Shown: positions 10,358 through 23,060 of the stretch, piece after piece
Layout of the letters: each line of letters opens with the position of its first letter
Position numbering within the stretch: the first letter of the stretch is position 1
IMG/VR virus record: IMGVR_UViG_3300036978_000388
Location: 1-29,245 of that record
Source of the DNA: a virus
DNA: 29,245 nt
Reading direction: 5' to 3' (one strand)
The notes under the pieces: model-generated
Told to the model about the DNA's origin: nothing
Databases searched by the model: none
Seen by the model: the letters and a program-made list of their open reading frames with translations, nothing else
Position numbers and translations under genes: made by a program

Positions 10358-10368
10358 ATGTACTTATA

Positions 10369-10460
10369 TTAGTTAAAAATATTGTAAAGATAAATAATAG
10401 TTTTCATATATTCCAAATAATTTTAGTTAGAGATGTAATTATTTATAACTAAAATAGTTA
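10369..10460. promoter_or_regulatory. Repeated TAGTTA motif with a perfect palindrome
   Basis: The motif TTAGTTA occurs at 10369-10375 and at 10423-10429. An inverted repeat TAACTA-aaa-TAGTTA lies at 10446-10460. Copies flank and overlap the candidate promoter at 10385-10417, so they could be operator half-sites. In such AT-rich DNA chance remains plausible. Confidence 0.25.
10385..10417 (-). promoter_or_regulatory. Candidate Bacteroidota-type promoter for the metallophosphoesterase operon
   Basis: On the minus strand, TTTG (10417-10414) is followed after 21 bases by TATCTTTA (10392-10385). The Bacteroidota consensus is TTTG, 17-23 bases, TAnnTTTG, so seven of eight bases of the -7 element match. 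Transcription would start about 20 bases before the ATG at 10357. It lies immediately downstream of a strong terminator, where a new promoter is expected. Confidence 0.45.
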
Positions 10461-10496
10461 GAAACAAAAACTCCTAGCGATAAATATCACTAGGAG
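10461..10496 (-). terminator. Intrinsic terminator of the fibre-gene operon
   Basis: CTCCTAG (10471-10477) pairs with CTAGGAG (10490-10496), and the stem continues after one mismatch with GAT/ATC. On the minus strand the stem is followed by TTTTTGTTT (10470-10462). It lies about 40 bases after the stop of the last fibre gene (10536), which gives the classic rho-independent layout. Confidence 0.8.
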
Positions 10497-10526
10497 AAAT
10501 CTTGTAAAACCAACAAAACAAGATTT
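10497..10526 (-). other. Second hairpin abutting the terminator
   Basis: AAATCTTGT (10497-10505) and ACAAGATTT (10518-10526) form a perfect 9-bp stem with a 12-base loop. It lies between the stop codon of the 10536 gene and the intrinsic terminator, with no spacer before the terminator stem. On the + strand it is followed by a T run, so it could also act in the opposite direction. Confidence 0.65.
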
Positions 10527-10535
10527 TTTATTGTT

Positions 10536-18177: not shown

Positions 18178-18193
18178 GTTTGTTTTAAATAAA

Positions 18194-18234
18194 TATGCCA
18201 GAGGAATATGAGTTATCCTCTTCCCTCTGGCATA
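18194..18234 (-). terminator. Strong hairpin after the 393-residue structural gene
   Basis: TATGCCAGAGG (18194-18204) pairs perfectly over 11 bp with CCTCTGGCATA (18224-18234), with a 19-base loop. On the minus strand the stem is followed by TTTATTT, a weak U tract. It may be a partial terminator or an RNA-stabilising or processing hairpin, because no promoter is evident before the next gene 17 bases away. Confidence 0.6.
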
Positions 18235-18267
18235 GGTTATTATTAAATATTATTTCTATTTATATTC

Positions 18268-20233: not shown

Positions 20234-20250
20234 CCTCGGTTATACCGAGG
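20234..20250 (-). promoter_or_regulatory. Hairpin overlapping a stop codon
   Basis: CCTCGGT (20234-20240) and ACCGAGG (20244-20250) form a perfect 7-bp stem with a 3-base loop. The stop codon at 20242-20240 is inside it. The minus strand continues GGTTTAAAATAT, a poor U tract, so an RNA-processing, attenuation or re-initiation role is as likely as termination. Confidence 0.5.
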
Positions 20251-21211
20251 CTAGCTTTTTAGTTTTTAATTTGCCTTCTAATACTAATAACTCATCTTGG
20301 TTATCATCATCAGCTAAGAATCTAATTAAATCTTCTTCATCTTTAGCTATTTCATATTCACCTTCATAAACCTTACCGTTTGGTTTGATTCTATATATTG
20401 AATGAGCTACAGCTTGTTTTACTAAATCTTTAATATGGAGTAAATCTTCTTTCATGTCAGCAAATCTATTGAACACTTCAACTGGATTCAATCCTGAATA
20501 CTTACCATTCTTGAATTCTGTTTGTTTCAATACATTATCTACTAAGTTGTATACCACTTCTTCTTTTGAATCTTCTGATACTGGAAGACCTAAAAGTCTT
20601 GCAACTTTACGTTTCTTCTCAGGAGTCATACTATCAAACTTAACAATTGCTTTGTTGATCAATTGTTTTTTCTTGAAGATCACTGCATTTTCAATCTCAT
20701 CATCTACAACGTAGAATTGTGTATCTGCAGCATATTCTCCTCTTTCCCAAGCTTGGTATGAAGATGCAATAGTTGGATGTACTCTCAACCATGAAAAGGC
20801 TATTTCTTGAAAAGGAACTGATAAATCAAAATAGTTATCACCATCTAATAACTTAACTGACTGAACGTGTGTTTGGTCATCTGTTGATAATGATAAGCCA
20901 TAGTTCCAAAATGATGAACGAGGTCCTAAATCAATATCGCCTATTTCATTCTCAAGTTTTACTCTAAGAGCTTTAACTCTTTCAATTTCTAATTCTTTTT
21001 CTAAAGGATCTTGAATTCTTTTAATATAAGCAGCAGTCTCATCTAAGCCTGTTCTATACTTTCCATCCAATTCTTTATAAGGATATTTGAATACTCCTGT
21101 TCCAGGGATTCTTGTCATTCCTTTCTGTGATAATCCACTATCCATAGTTTGTAATTGAGCACTATTTGAATAGTCTCTCTTAATAGTAGAAATTTTGCCT
21201 GTTTTACCCAT
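20240..21211 (-). CDS. Conserved crAss-like head-region protein, function unknown
   Basis: This 323-residue protein is charged and mostly helical. The N-terminus (S-T-I-K-R-D-Y-S-N-S-A-Q-L, then G-T-G-V-F-K-Y-P-Y-K-E) is followed by a helical block (I-K-R-I-Q-D-P-L-E-K-E-L-E-I-E-R-V-K-A-L-R). The middle contains M-T-P-E-K-K-R-K-V-A-R-L-L-G-L-P-V, which resembles a short nucleic-acid-binding or SAP-like helix pair. The C-terminus is acidic (A-D-D-D-N-Q-D-E-L-L-V-L-E-G) and then basic. It is the first gene after the tRNA and shares a leader sequence with the scaffold gene. Position suggests a capsid-interior or neck protein. I do not know a function for the family. Confidence 0.65.
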   Translation of the reverse strand: MGKTGKISTIKRDYSNSAQLQTMDSGLSQKGMTRIPGTGVFKYPYKELDGKYRTGLDETAAYIKRIQDPLEKELEIERVKALRVKLENEIGDIDLGPRSSFWNYGLSLSTDDQTHVQSVKLLDGDNYFDLSVPFQEIAFSWLRVHPTIASSYQAWERGEYAADTQFYVVDDEIENAVIFKKKQLINKAIVKFDSMTPEKKRKVARLLGLPVSEDSKEEVVYNLVDNVLKQTEFKNGKYSGLNPVEVFNRFADMKEDLLHIKDLVKQAVAHSIYRIKPNGKVYEGEYEIAKDEEDLIRFLADDDNQDELLVLEGKLKTKKLASV

Positions 21212-21243
21212 AATGTAGTTATTTAATAATGTTTGGTTTATTT
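21212..21243 (-). promoter_or_regulatory. Leader shared with the scaffold gene (copy 2)
   Basis: The + strand 15-mer ATGTTTGGTTTATTT (21229-21243) and ATGTAGTT (21214-21221) precede this gene's start. The same two blocks occur in the same order before the ATG at 24371. Here the leader begins 3 bases from the tRNA 3' end. An A-rich SD-less ribosome entry element is a possible role. Confidence 0.4.
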
Positions 21244-21246
21244 TAG

Positions 21247-21320
21247 TTGCGTGGGAAGGACTCGAACCTTCGACCTCTGGATTATGAGTCCAGCAAGCTA
21301 ACCAACTGCTCTACCACACG
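21247..21320 (-). tRNA. tRNA-Met (CAT), initiator-like
   Basis: Seventy-four bases fold as a full cloverleaf: acceptor CGTGTGG / CCACGCA, D-arm GAGC / GCTT, anticodon stem CTGGA / TCCAG with loop CTCATAA (anticodon CAT), T-arm GAAGG / CCTTC with loop TTCGAGT, discriminator A; CCA is not encoded. Two bacterial initiator features are seen: a C1-A72 mismatch and the A11-T24 pair. Two of the three G:C pairs of the initiator anticodon stem are present (29:41, 30:40), while 31:39 is A:T. Elongator Met and Ile2(CAT) tRNAs normally pair 1:72 and have Y11-R24. The tRNA presumably lies in the capsid transcript and would be freed by RNase P immediately after the structured RNA. Confidence 0.93.
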
Positions 21321-21486
21321 ATTTGCAGAGTGGTTCCACCGAAGGAACTTGATCATGGATACTATCCATATCAAACACTCTTAATTTACTATTTTTAAGT
21401 GCAGAGCTAAGGCAAATGCTTAGTTGGGCACTAGGTTTGAGAATCATCCCCTCTTAGGAGGGAGAGGAGTTGAGGGGAATCTTCTC
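21321..21486 (-). ncRNA. Compact structured RNA between the capsid gene and the tRNA
   Basis: Reading the minus strand: hairpin A pairs GAGAA with TTCTC (21486-21482 / 21443-21439), then after a 3x3 internal loop a 7-bp stem (21478-21472 / 21453-21447) with an 18-base loop. Hairpin B pairs AGTGC with GCACT (21432-21428 / 21402-21398) and CTAAG with CTTAG, loop CATTTGC. Element C is a three-way junction (21381-21327): a 6-bp closing stem, a 10/11-base arm with one bulged base and a 3-base loop, and a 5-bp arm with a 6-base loop. The loop of B (ATTTGC, 21417-21412) is complementary to GCAAAT (21326-21321) just after C, so a pseudoknot is possible. All helices are Watson-Crick pairs found by eye. 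No open frame crosses it. I recognise no known class. Confidence 0.6.
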
Positions 21487-21497
21487 GGATTTTATTA

Positions 21498-23060
21498 TTA
21501 GAATTGTGGCATTTCCTCAATCAACACAGTTCTAGAAAGGTCTTCAATAAATACATCGCATCTATCTTTCATCCAGATTTCGTATCCTGGGAATTTATTA
21601 GCAGAACTCATACCTTGAGATTTAGCAAAACCTAAGTGGTGACGAGTACCATCAATATAACCCCAAGTCATAGAAGGTGCACCCTTCATACGTACTTCAC
21701 GGATGTTGTTTACCATTGATCCATCAGACATTGGAGAAACATCAAACACCATAAATACTGGAGTAGATTTTTTGTTTTGTCCAAATTCTAAGTTAGATTG
21801 TGGTAAATCTAATTCTTTTAAGTGGATTAATTCAACACGTCCAGTCTCACGAGTTACCATTGCATCAAATGCAAAGTTGTAAGTGATGTGTTGTCCTTCA
21901 CCTTGCATATATCTGTTTCCAGAATCTGCCATGAAAGTTAATCCAGAGTTTAATGCATCTGTTTTTAAAGCTTGTTGGAATACATCGAATCCAGCTTCAT
22001 TAGTATACATTTTAACACTTCTATCTTTAACGTCCACACGTCTGTAGAATAAATCTCCAAATACAGAACGGATTAAGTTAGCAGAGAATTCACCTCTGTT
22101 GTATTGTACTAAGTTTCCATTGTTACGCATTCTGTGGTATACACCAGCAGATGTTCTTTTCAATTCTTGTTTAGAACCATTAGTTTTAACTGTACCTGGT
22201 TTAGCCCAGATCATACGTTTAACTTTTAATTCTAACATTGATTTACGCATCCAGAATTCGATGAACGGTTCCCATTTAACATCATTACGAGTTAAAGGTA
22301 ATTGGTTACGTCTTTGTGGAGCATACACTAAAATGTCTAATGGTTTACCAGAAGCATCTCTCATCATTTTGTCATCAGCCCATTCAGTGATTTTGTGCTC
22401 ATATCCATATGCAGAACCTAAAGATTCGAACATAGTGATTTGCTCACCTAATCTTGGAAGACCTAATAAGTCTTGATCAAATTCACCAATAGCAGCATCA
22501 ACTAATTCTAGTTCAACACCATACTGTAAAAATACAGGGTTTACAAAGTCTACAACTGGATTATCAGTTACTAATGTGAATGTGTACAAGAATCCCATAT
22601 TCCAAGGCACAGGATCTTTGATCACGTAGAATCTAGGACCATACTGACGTGTACCTACAGAGATGATAGCGTTTTTAGAAAACTCATTAGTATCTAATAC
22701 TAAAGAAAATTCTTGGCCATCAATACCTGTTTTACCAAGATCAATTAAATCTTGTGTAGAAGAAGGGATGTCAATGATTTTTGGGAATTTGTAAGGAACT
22801 GCTACTTGCCATTTCCAAGCGTCACTGTTATTATCAATGTAATAAGGAGTGCTCTTGTTGATCATGTCCAAGAAGTCATTACTGTAAAGTGAGCTCTGAG
22901 TATATAAAGAGATAATCTTTTTATCATAGTCTGCAGGCTCAGTAGAGTGAAAACTCTCTAAGTGGTTAGAGTCTGTTAGTTTTCCTACAGCACGTTTGTC
23001 CATGGACGCTACACGAGCATAAGTAAAACCAGTTAACCCAGGAATTGTTTGAATTGCCAT
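21498..23060 (-). CDS. Major capsid protein (HK97 fold, crAss-like)
   Basis: The 520-residue sequence (A-I-Q-T-I-P-G-L-T-G-F-T-Y-A-R-V, S-L-Y-T-Q-S-S-L-Y-S-N-D-F-L-D-M-I, Y-V-I-K-D-P-V-P-W-N-M-G-F-L-Y, then R-H-H-L-G-F-A-K-S-Q-G-M, F-P-G-Y-E-I-W-M-K-D-R-C-D-V-F-I-E-D) matches the crAss-like major capsid protein, a long HK97-fold protein that assembles the T=9 icosahedral head. Order supports it: it follows the scaffold-like gene by 36 bases. The leader is A-rich with no Shine-Dalgarno site, normal for Bacteroidota phages. The stop is followed at once by two more in-frame TAA codons, a marked structured RNA and a tRNA, so its transcript has an unusual 3' end. Confidence 0.93.
   Translation of the reverse strand: MAIQTIPGLTGFTYARVASMDKRAVGKLTDSNHLESFHSTEPADYDKKIISLYTQSSLYSNDFLDMINKSTPYYIDNNSDAWKWQVAVPYKFPKIIDIPSSTQDLIDLGKTGIDGQEFSLVLDTNEFSKNAIISVGTRQYGPRFYVIKDPVPWNMGFLYTFTLVTDNPVVDFVNPVFLQYGVELELVDAAIGEFDQDLLGLPRLGEQITMFESLGSAYGYEHKITEWADDKMMRDASGKPLDILVYAPQRRNQLPLTRNDVKWEPFIEFWMRKSMLELKVKRMIWAKPGTVKTNGSKQELKRTSAGVYHRMRNNGNLVQYNRGEFSANLIRSVFGDLFYRRVDVKDRSVKMYTNEAGFDVFQQALKTDALNSGLTFMADSGNRYMQGEGQHITYNFAFDAMVTRETGRVELIHLKELDLPQSNLEFGQNKKSTPVFMVFDVSPMSDGSMVNNIREVRMKGAPSMTWGYIDGTRHHLGFAKSQGMSSANKFPGYEIWMKDRCDVFIEDLSRTVLIEEMPQF

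Follow-up and report, generated by a model that had tools for sequence, protein, structure and literature searches.

A conserved RNA fold behind the capsid gene

The question raised by this locus is whether the RNA that can be folded from a short interval behind a crAss-like capsid gene is a conserved element and, if so, what it does for the phage. The window, by which we mean the whole stretch of 29,245 nucleotides that was analyzed, carries this interval at 21321-21486, where the gene for the major capsid protein (MCP) lies directly upstream of it on the minus strand. The position is intercistronic within a long same-strand operon, and a conventional large terminase gene is found near the MCP gene. 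The features of the locus, all on the minus strand, are as follows.

21498 to 23060, minus strand: MCP gene, crAss-like (Pfam PF23898 Crass_capsid, E 6e-27; PHROG 11589, major head protein)
21439 to 21486, minus strand: hairpin H1, just after the MCP stop; GAGAA, a 3x3 internal loop, UCCCCUC, an 18-nt pyrimidine-rich loop, GAGGGGA and UUCUC; MFE -17.2
21398 to 21433, minus strand: H2, an optional second hairpin outside the conserved core, with a 4x4 internal loop and a CAUUUGC loop
21326 to 21381, minus strand: three-way junction, the conserved part of the RNA alongside H1
21376 to 21381, minus strand: 5' strand of junction helix P1, AGAGUG
21349 to 21374, minus strand: junction arm P2, UUGAUAUGGAU-AGU-AUCCAU-G-AUCAA, with bulged G21354
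21333 to 21348, minus strand: junction hairpin P3, GUUCC-UUCGGU-GGAAC, abutting P1 with no linker
21327 to 21332, minus strand: 3' strand of P1, CACUCU
21321 to 21326, minus strand: conserved single-stranded tail of the junction, R-C-W-A-A, which reads GCAAAU in the window
21246 to 21320, minus strand: optional tRNA with a CAU anticodon (ARAGORN; Rfam RF00005, 63.2 bits), itself followed by a tail of the same type, ACUAAAAUAAACC
20240 to 21211, minus strand: downstream gene, PHROG 16383 (function unknown), on the strand of the MCP gene

The minus strand of 21321-21486 folded with a minimum free energy of -49.3 kcal/mol, against -33.2 +/- 4.1 kcal/mol for 200 dinucleotide shuffles (z -3.95). 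The fold drawn in the initial annotation, a two-part hairpin with an 18-nt loop, a hairpin with a 4x4 internal loop and a three-way junction with linker U21375 and bulged G21354, was right, and the interval was more stable than all 200 shuffles. When the parts were folded by themselves, the junction gave a z of -4.24 with no shuffle as good, H1 a z of -1.2 with 27 of 200 shuffles as good, and H2 a z of -1.7 with 15 of 200. The fold-energy signal is carried by the junction, and H1 and H2 each fall within the shuffled range.

Covariation and strand of the three-way junction

Relatives of the MCP number at least 598 in IMG/VR. The region 3' of the MCP stop was examined in a sample of 167 loci, 124 of them distinct, with MCPs approximately 93 to 100% identical to that of the window. 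They follow a common plan: the stop codon, a strong H1, optional modules, the three-way junction, an optional tRNA and the A-rich leader of the PHROG 16383 gene.

A first MAFFT alignment (A1) was left out because the CAGAGATG clade was misaligned in it. In the seed alignment of 11 junctions, 97.4% of the cells were paired, and 10 pairs had changed on both sides. The covariance model built from it, R1, returned 86 distinct copies from 91 sources at a cutoff of E < 0.01, and the copy in the window (E 9e-8) was the sole match there. Across the 86 copies, 93.9% of 1799 cells held standard pairs, two-sided changes occurred in 18 of 21 pairs (311 cells), and 61 further pair types were seen. This alignment was fitted to the model and hence leans toward it. 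The covariation score was 0.55, compared with 0.16 for shuffled partners, a control that ignores the tree, and 0.05 to 0.07 after partners had been moved by one to three columns, a control that retains relatedness and over which the excess is about eightfold. Two-sided changes were present in all 10 modelled pairs of P2, in all 4 modelled pairs of P3 and in 4 of the 7 pairs of P1, where the inner pairs covary and the outer ones (A-U, G-C, A-U) are invariant in 86 of 86 copies. Compensatory changes in homologues, which the initial annotation had made a test of the fold, are massive in the junction and extend to H1.

The alignment also identifies the strand on which selection acts. G-U pairs outnumber A-C mismatches 139 to 9 in the 86 copies, and since a G-U pair is a C-A mismatch on the other strand, the selection is on RNA in the MCP sense. 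On the same asymmetry, a DNA cruciform was rejected. The gathering of modular insertions, tRNAs and HNH genes at this place would suit a DNA-level element, be it a cruciform or a packaging or recombination site, but the 139:9 ratio points to selection on one RNA strand and largely refutes that explanation, to which we give almost no weight.

The H1 hairpin

A script found H1 in 123 of the 124 distinct loci, and the last one (locus L036, GACUCUCCUC/GAGAGGGGAGUC) was recognized by eye. The stems covary, with G-C, A-U, U-A and C-G types at one and the same position, so that they are changed yet complementary.

The loop of H1, at 21454-21471 in the window, is rich in CUCC within the window's subclade and resembles an anti-Shine-Dalgarno sequence. 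The full motif, CACCUCCU, occurs in only 22 of 83 distinct H1 hairpins, for which reason mimicry of the anti-Shine-Dalgarno sequence was rejected. A kink-turn in H1 was likewise rejected by eye, the internal loop being neither conserved nor a fit to G.A/A.G. Pairing of the P3 loop (UUCRRU) with CCGAG, conserved at the start of H1, suits the UUCGGU variants only and, judged by eye, does not covary.

The CUCC-rich loops, together with the self-contained and stable nature of the fold, could be taken to indicate a small RNA that is freed from the capsid mRNA and acts in trans on host or phage RNAs. We regard this as very unlikely. Apart from a loop of six bases and a tail of five, no conserved seed is exposed, the H1 loop motif occurs in only 54 of 83 distinct H1 hairpins, and complements to the core of the loop, GGAGGGAG and GGGAGAGG, are absent from the sense strand of the window.

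Copy number and genomic place

In all 14 contigs of 98 to 119 kb that were scanned with model R2, the junction was present in a single copy 3' of the MCP gene; the one extra match (E 0.27) was not credible. Viral contigs were also scanned independently of the MCP, with a DNA pattern of the junction that held no capsid information. The pattern matched 120 contigs, and each of the 116 matches whose position could be measured lay 3' of an MCP gene, almost always 54 to 118 bases past it. The remaining four were at cut contig ends and were followed by the usual downstream gene.

Insertions of HNH homing endonuclease-like genes, which have repeatedly entered the intergenic region behind the MCP gene, are informative about what belongs together. 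One locus, L256, has an HNH endonuclease gene between the MCP stop and the RNA, and H1 and the junction are still adjacent and intact, beside the downstream gene; therefore, H1 and the junction form one unit. In 11 other loci (L061, L070, L006, L008, L015, L033, L155, L162, L187, L238 and L259), the HNH gene stands 3' of the RNA, which so stays with the MCP gene. In two of these, L061 and L070, the HNH gene lies within the tRNA, splitting it at the anticodon loop. With HNH genes either before or after it, the unit has no fixed distance to the MCP stop and is not tied to the part of the next gene where ribosomes bind.

These loci bear on the possibility that the RNA is a regulatory leader of the gene at 20240-21211, acting on translation or as a protein-bound operator. 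The same gene follows in 174 distinct intergenic regions, and in L256 the RNA is beside it and away from the MCP gene. However, in the 11 loci an HNH gene with a leader of its own intervenes, tRNAs separate the two in 27 of 125 loci, and the downstream gene's A-rich leader, situated 3' of the RNA, does not belong to the conserved fold. A leader function is accordingly rated as improbable.

Optional modules, the proposed pseudoknot and the tRNA

The initial annotation had treated the interval as a single compact RNA that included H2. H2 is instead an optional module, present in 11 of 125 distinct loci, or 12 with a variant in L008. A pseudoknot had also been proposed, between AUUUGC in the H2 loop (21412-21417) and GCAAAU (21321-21326). 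The complementarity exists in the window, and the pairing is not conserved. The loop CAUUUGC is identical in all 11 loci with H2, whereas the tail varies: it reads GCAAAU in three, ACAAAU in three and a noncomplementary sequence (GCUAAU, ACUAAA or ACUAAU) in five. GCAAAU or ACAAAU is also found in 50 of the 114 loci that lack H2. The match in the window arises because the GCAAAU strand is part of the conserved junction tail. We reject the pseudoknot as a conserved feature; in single genomes it may form.

That the fold fills the interval between the capsid stop and a tRNA is true of the window, but a tRNA stands behind the junction in only 27 of 125 loci, and a 3' end defined by processing of the tRNA could apply to only about one-fifth of them. 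The tRNA, at 21246-21320 in the window and in the 26 related loci, always has a CAU anticodon and is built on several different scaffolds. Several of the 27 share features with initiator tRNAs, namely GGG/CCC or nearly so in the stem of the anticodon arm and a 1:72 position that is unpaired, and may be initiator-like tRNAs encoded by the phage beside its capsid gene. In some loci the tRNA ends in the tail A-C-W-A-A-A, the same as that of the junction, as if it had been inserted together with the tail or between tail copies.

Other optional modules were seen. H0, between the MCP stop and H1 in 29 of 125 loci (L007, L008, L010, L014, L065 and others), has differing stems around a conserved core, GCU-N-CCCAU-n-AGAACAGC, and looks like a further conserved RNA motif. 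M2 (ACUUAGUCAAGCCUCUUGC..., 12 loci) and M3 (CAGAACAA...GGACAGC..., 7 loci) lie between H1 and the junction. Elsewhere in the window, the intergenic regions at 18178-18267 and 10358-10535 hold long, near-perfect hairpins (CUAUGCCAGAGG...CCUCUGGCAUA and CUCCUAGUGAUA...UAUCGCUAGGAG, respectively), which may be terminators or sites of processing in the late operon.

Comparison with known RNA families

Rfam 15 gave nothing above gathering cutoffs except the tRNA, in the window and in 1 of 18 relatives. Matches below threshold were at chance level, and no known ribozyme, riboswitch or pRNA was matched at gathering thresholds. The best subthreshold match, SNORA55 in L086 (30.1 of 45 bits), is a eukaryotic snoRNA with a two-hairpin resemblance and was rejected. 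The literature searched, which included few subscription papers, contained no description of such an RNA, of crAss-like transcriptomics or of an MCP 3' untranslated region RNA, and no RNA-level mechanism of late gene control in crAss-like phages was found there. The initial proposal that the capsid transcript carries a structured RNA at its 3' end is thus supported by covariation, single copy and place, and this RNA is conserved and new to Rfam.

The phi29 pRNA is likewise a phage RNA with a three-way junction. It differs from the present RNA in that the Phage_pRNA model (cmscan) had no match in the window, the RNA is in the capsid operon of a terminase-bearing phage, and there is no sign of oligomerizing loops. 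In phage operons such as those of T4, endonucleolytic processing between genes or at gene ends shapes mRNA ends and decay (PMC3014915); those sites differ in that no conserved three-way junction linked to a single gene is described for them.

Conserved unpaired nucleotides and likeness to tRNA

Outside its helices, the junction is conserved at three places. The P3 loop is UUCGAU, UUCGGU, UUCAAU or UUCAGU (UUCRRU) in the great majority of the 86 copies; its first base is nearly always U, and its fifth is A in about two-thirds and G in 24 of 86, approximately 28% (UUCGGU and UUCAGU). P2 has a bulged nucleotide on its 3' side, usually G, at a height that differs among subtypes. The tail begins with R in 85 of 86 copies, followed by C in 86, A or U in 83, A in 85 and A in 78 of 86. 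A generic stabilizer would not need loop, bulge and tail nucleotides so conserved, and a specific partner therefore probably exists.

That partner might be a phage protein, such as the capsid protein, a scaffold or another late protein, bound for autoregulation, assembly or packaging. The UUCRRU loop, the bulge and the RCWAA tail in a covarying frame resemble recognition elements, and the link to the MCP gene is exclusive. Against this, no candidate RNA-binding protein was found, the Phage_pRNA family is not matched and the terminase is of the conventional large type; we consider such a site rather unlikely.

A tRNA-processing enzyme is another potential partner. RNase P gauges a length of 12 bp between the T-loop and the site of cleavage, accepts acceptor/T-arm minihelices as sufficient substrates and makes contact with the RCCA tail (PMC11143913). 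Of 85 junction copies, 60 have 12 nt and 25 have 13 nt between the P3 loop and the end of P1, and P3 often consists of 4 bp plus a mismatch. The junction could be likened to a tRNA, or to a minimal RNase P substrate, in this 12- to 13-nt 3' arm resembling the acceptor and T arms, in the UUC start of the loop, in a linker of zero or one nucleotide and in the R-C-W-A tail. The counterpart of the acceptor/T-arm half would be a 6- to 8-bp acceptor-like helix joined to a 4- to 5-bp T-arm-like hairpin with a UUCRAU-type loop. There are also differences from a tRNA. A single arm stands in place of the D and anticodon arms, the loop has six bases rather than seven, and the G at its fifth position in about 28% of copies is disfavored by the canonical T-loop (U54-A58). 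The tail is RCWA and not RCCA, with no CCA. Model RF00005 did not match the junction even at permissive thresholds, and ARAGORN did not call it as a tRNA.

Distribution in Crassvirales

Model R2 found no junction in crAss001 or in the Leptolyngbya phage and its relatives, and only a 14-nt chance match in Cellulophaga phage phi14:2. The Leptolyngbya phage, L170 (PP438436.1), is listed with that cyanobacterium as its host, and its crAss-like capsid protein is 26% identical to the window's MCP. Several of these phages have, right behind the MCP stop, a simple, stable hairpin as a counterpart of H1: that of crAss001 has a U-run after it and is terminator-like, those in relatives of the Leptolyngbya phage often have a U-run, and that of phi14:2 has none. 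A hairpin at the 3' end of the MCP gene thus looks general in Crassvirales, and H1 looks like an order-wide feature, with the junction special to the window's clade.

One relative, L303, has 87% MCP identity. Model R2 missed its junction, but the minimum free energy structure is a three-way junction, GGAGGGG - arm - GAGA UUCGAU UCUC - A - CCCCUCC, followed by UCAA and preceded by a hairpin, AUAGGG...CCCUAU. A rule written for this layout was satisfied by 2 of 20,000 shuffles of the L303 region and by four places in 468 kb of control sequence (both strands), among them the junction of the window itself and a place in a tRNA of crAss001. The sequence of L303 is rewritten, while architecture, loop, arm length and tail are kept. 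The L303 contig is filed in a metagenome-assembled genome of the Tissierellales (Firmicutes), which is either a true host assignment or mis-binning.

The window's clade differs from crAss001 in having no U-run. None was found after the junction, where the longest is 1 to 2, and the minus strand of 20900-21900 has no terminator-like site, that is, no G+C-rich hairpin followed by a U-run, H1 included. The presence of terminator-like hairpins here in related phages, and of a junction with no U-run in this clade, could indicate an RNA for processive antitermination or modification of RNA polymerase, like HK022 put or EAR, that lets the polymerase pass into the downstream structural operon; the intercistronic place in a long same-strand operon agrees with this. 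However, no Rfam family of this kind is matched, no known downstream terminator needs to be overridden, and H1 is not terminator-like on the minus strand. Antitermination is, in our estimation, a distinctly improbable function.

Proposed function at the 3' end of the capsid mRNA

With structure, strand, conservation, single copy and place of the unit of H1 and the junction established, its role has to be inferred. The reading that we tentatively prefer, with confidence that falls a little short of even, is that H1 and the junction with its RCWAA tail are a cis-acting 3'-end element of the capsid mRNA that would set and protect the end of this abundant message. We propose a 3'-end role because the end and the stability of the capsid message are an obvious need at this spot. 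The transcript of the late operon would run on past the MCP gene, lacking an intrinsic terminator; the junction would be recognized and the RNA cut at or near it; and H1 would then protect the capsid mRNA from 3' exonucleases. Of the three roles offered in the initial annotation, which also included a host-directed regulator, a transcript-stabilizing cap fares best, whereas a packaging RNA of the phi29 type is disfavored by the lack of a pRNA match, the conventional terminase and the place in the capsid operon.

The identity of the cutting enzyme is more speculative. By analogy with minimal tRNA substrates, the junction might be read as a tRNA-like minihelix and cut 5' of P1 by RNase P or a similar tRNA enzyme, a testable idea to which we assign a low probability. 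It would mean that a tRNA mimic, universal in the clade, is built into the capsid mRNA of a double-stranded DNA phage and that a host tRNA-maturation enzyme cuts there and leaves a hairpin-capped capsid message, which we likewise think a doubtful though conceivable outcome.

Phage mRNAs with structured elements for processing or stability are known already; what is new is this particular fold, together with its universal presence in the clade and its link with the capsid gene. If the tRNA-mimic reading is true, the junction would be a dedicated mRNA-processing signal in a phage. The RNA family itself covaries strongly, is absent from Rfam and seems to be obligatory for a group of uncultured crAss-like phages that is large and widely sampled, with at least 598 candidate MCP loci. 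The covariance model of the junction allows metatranscriptomes to be searched at once, and the tie of the family to the gene for the most abundant protein of these phages offers a way into the study of how crAss-like phages control their late genes.
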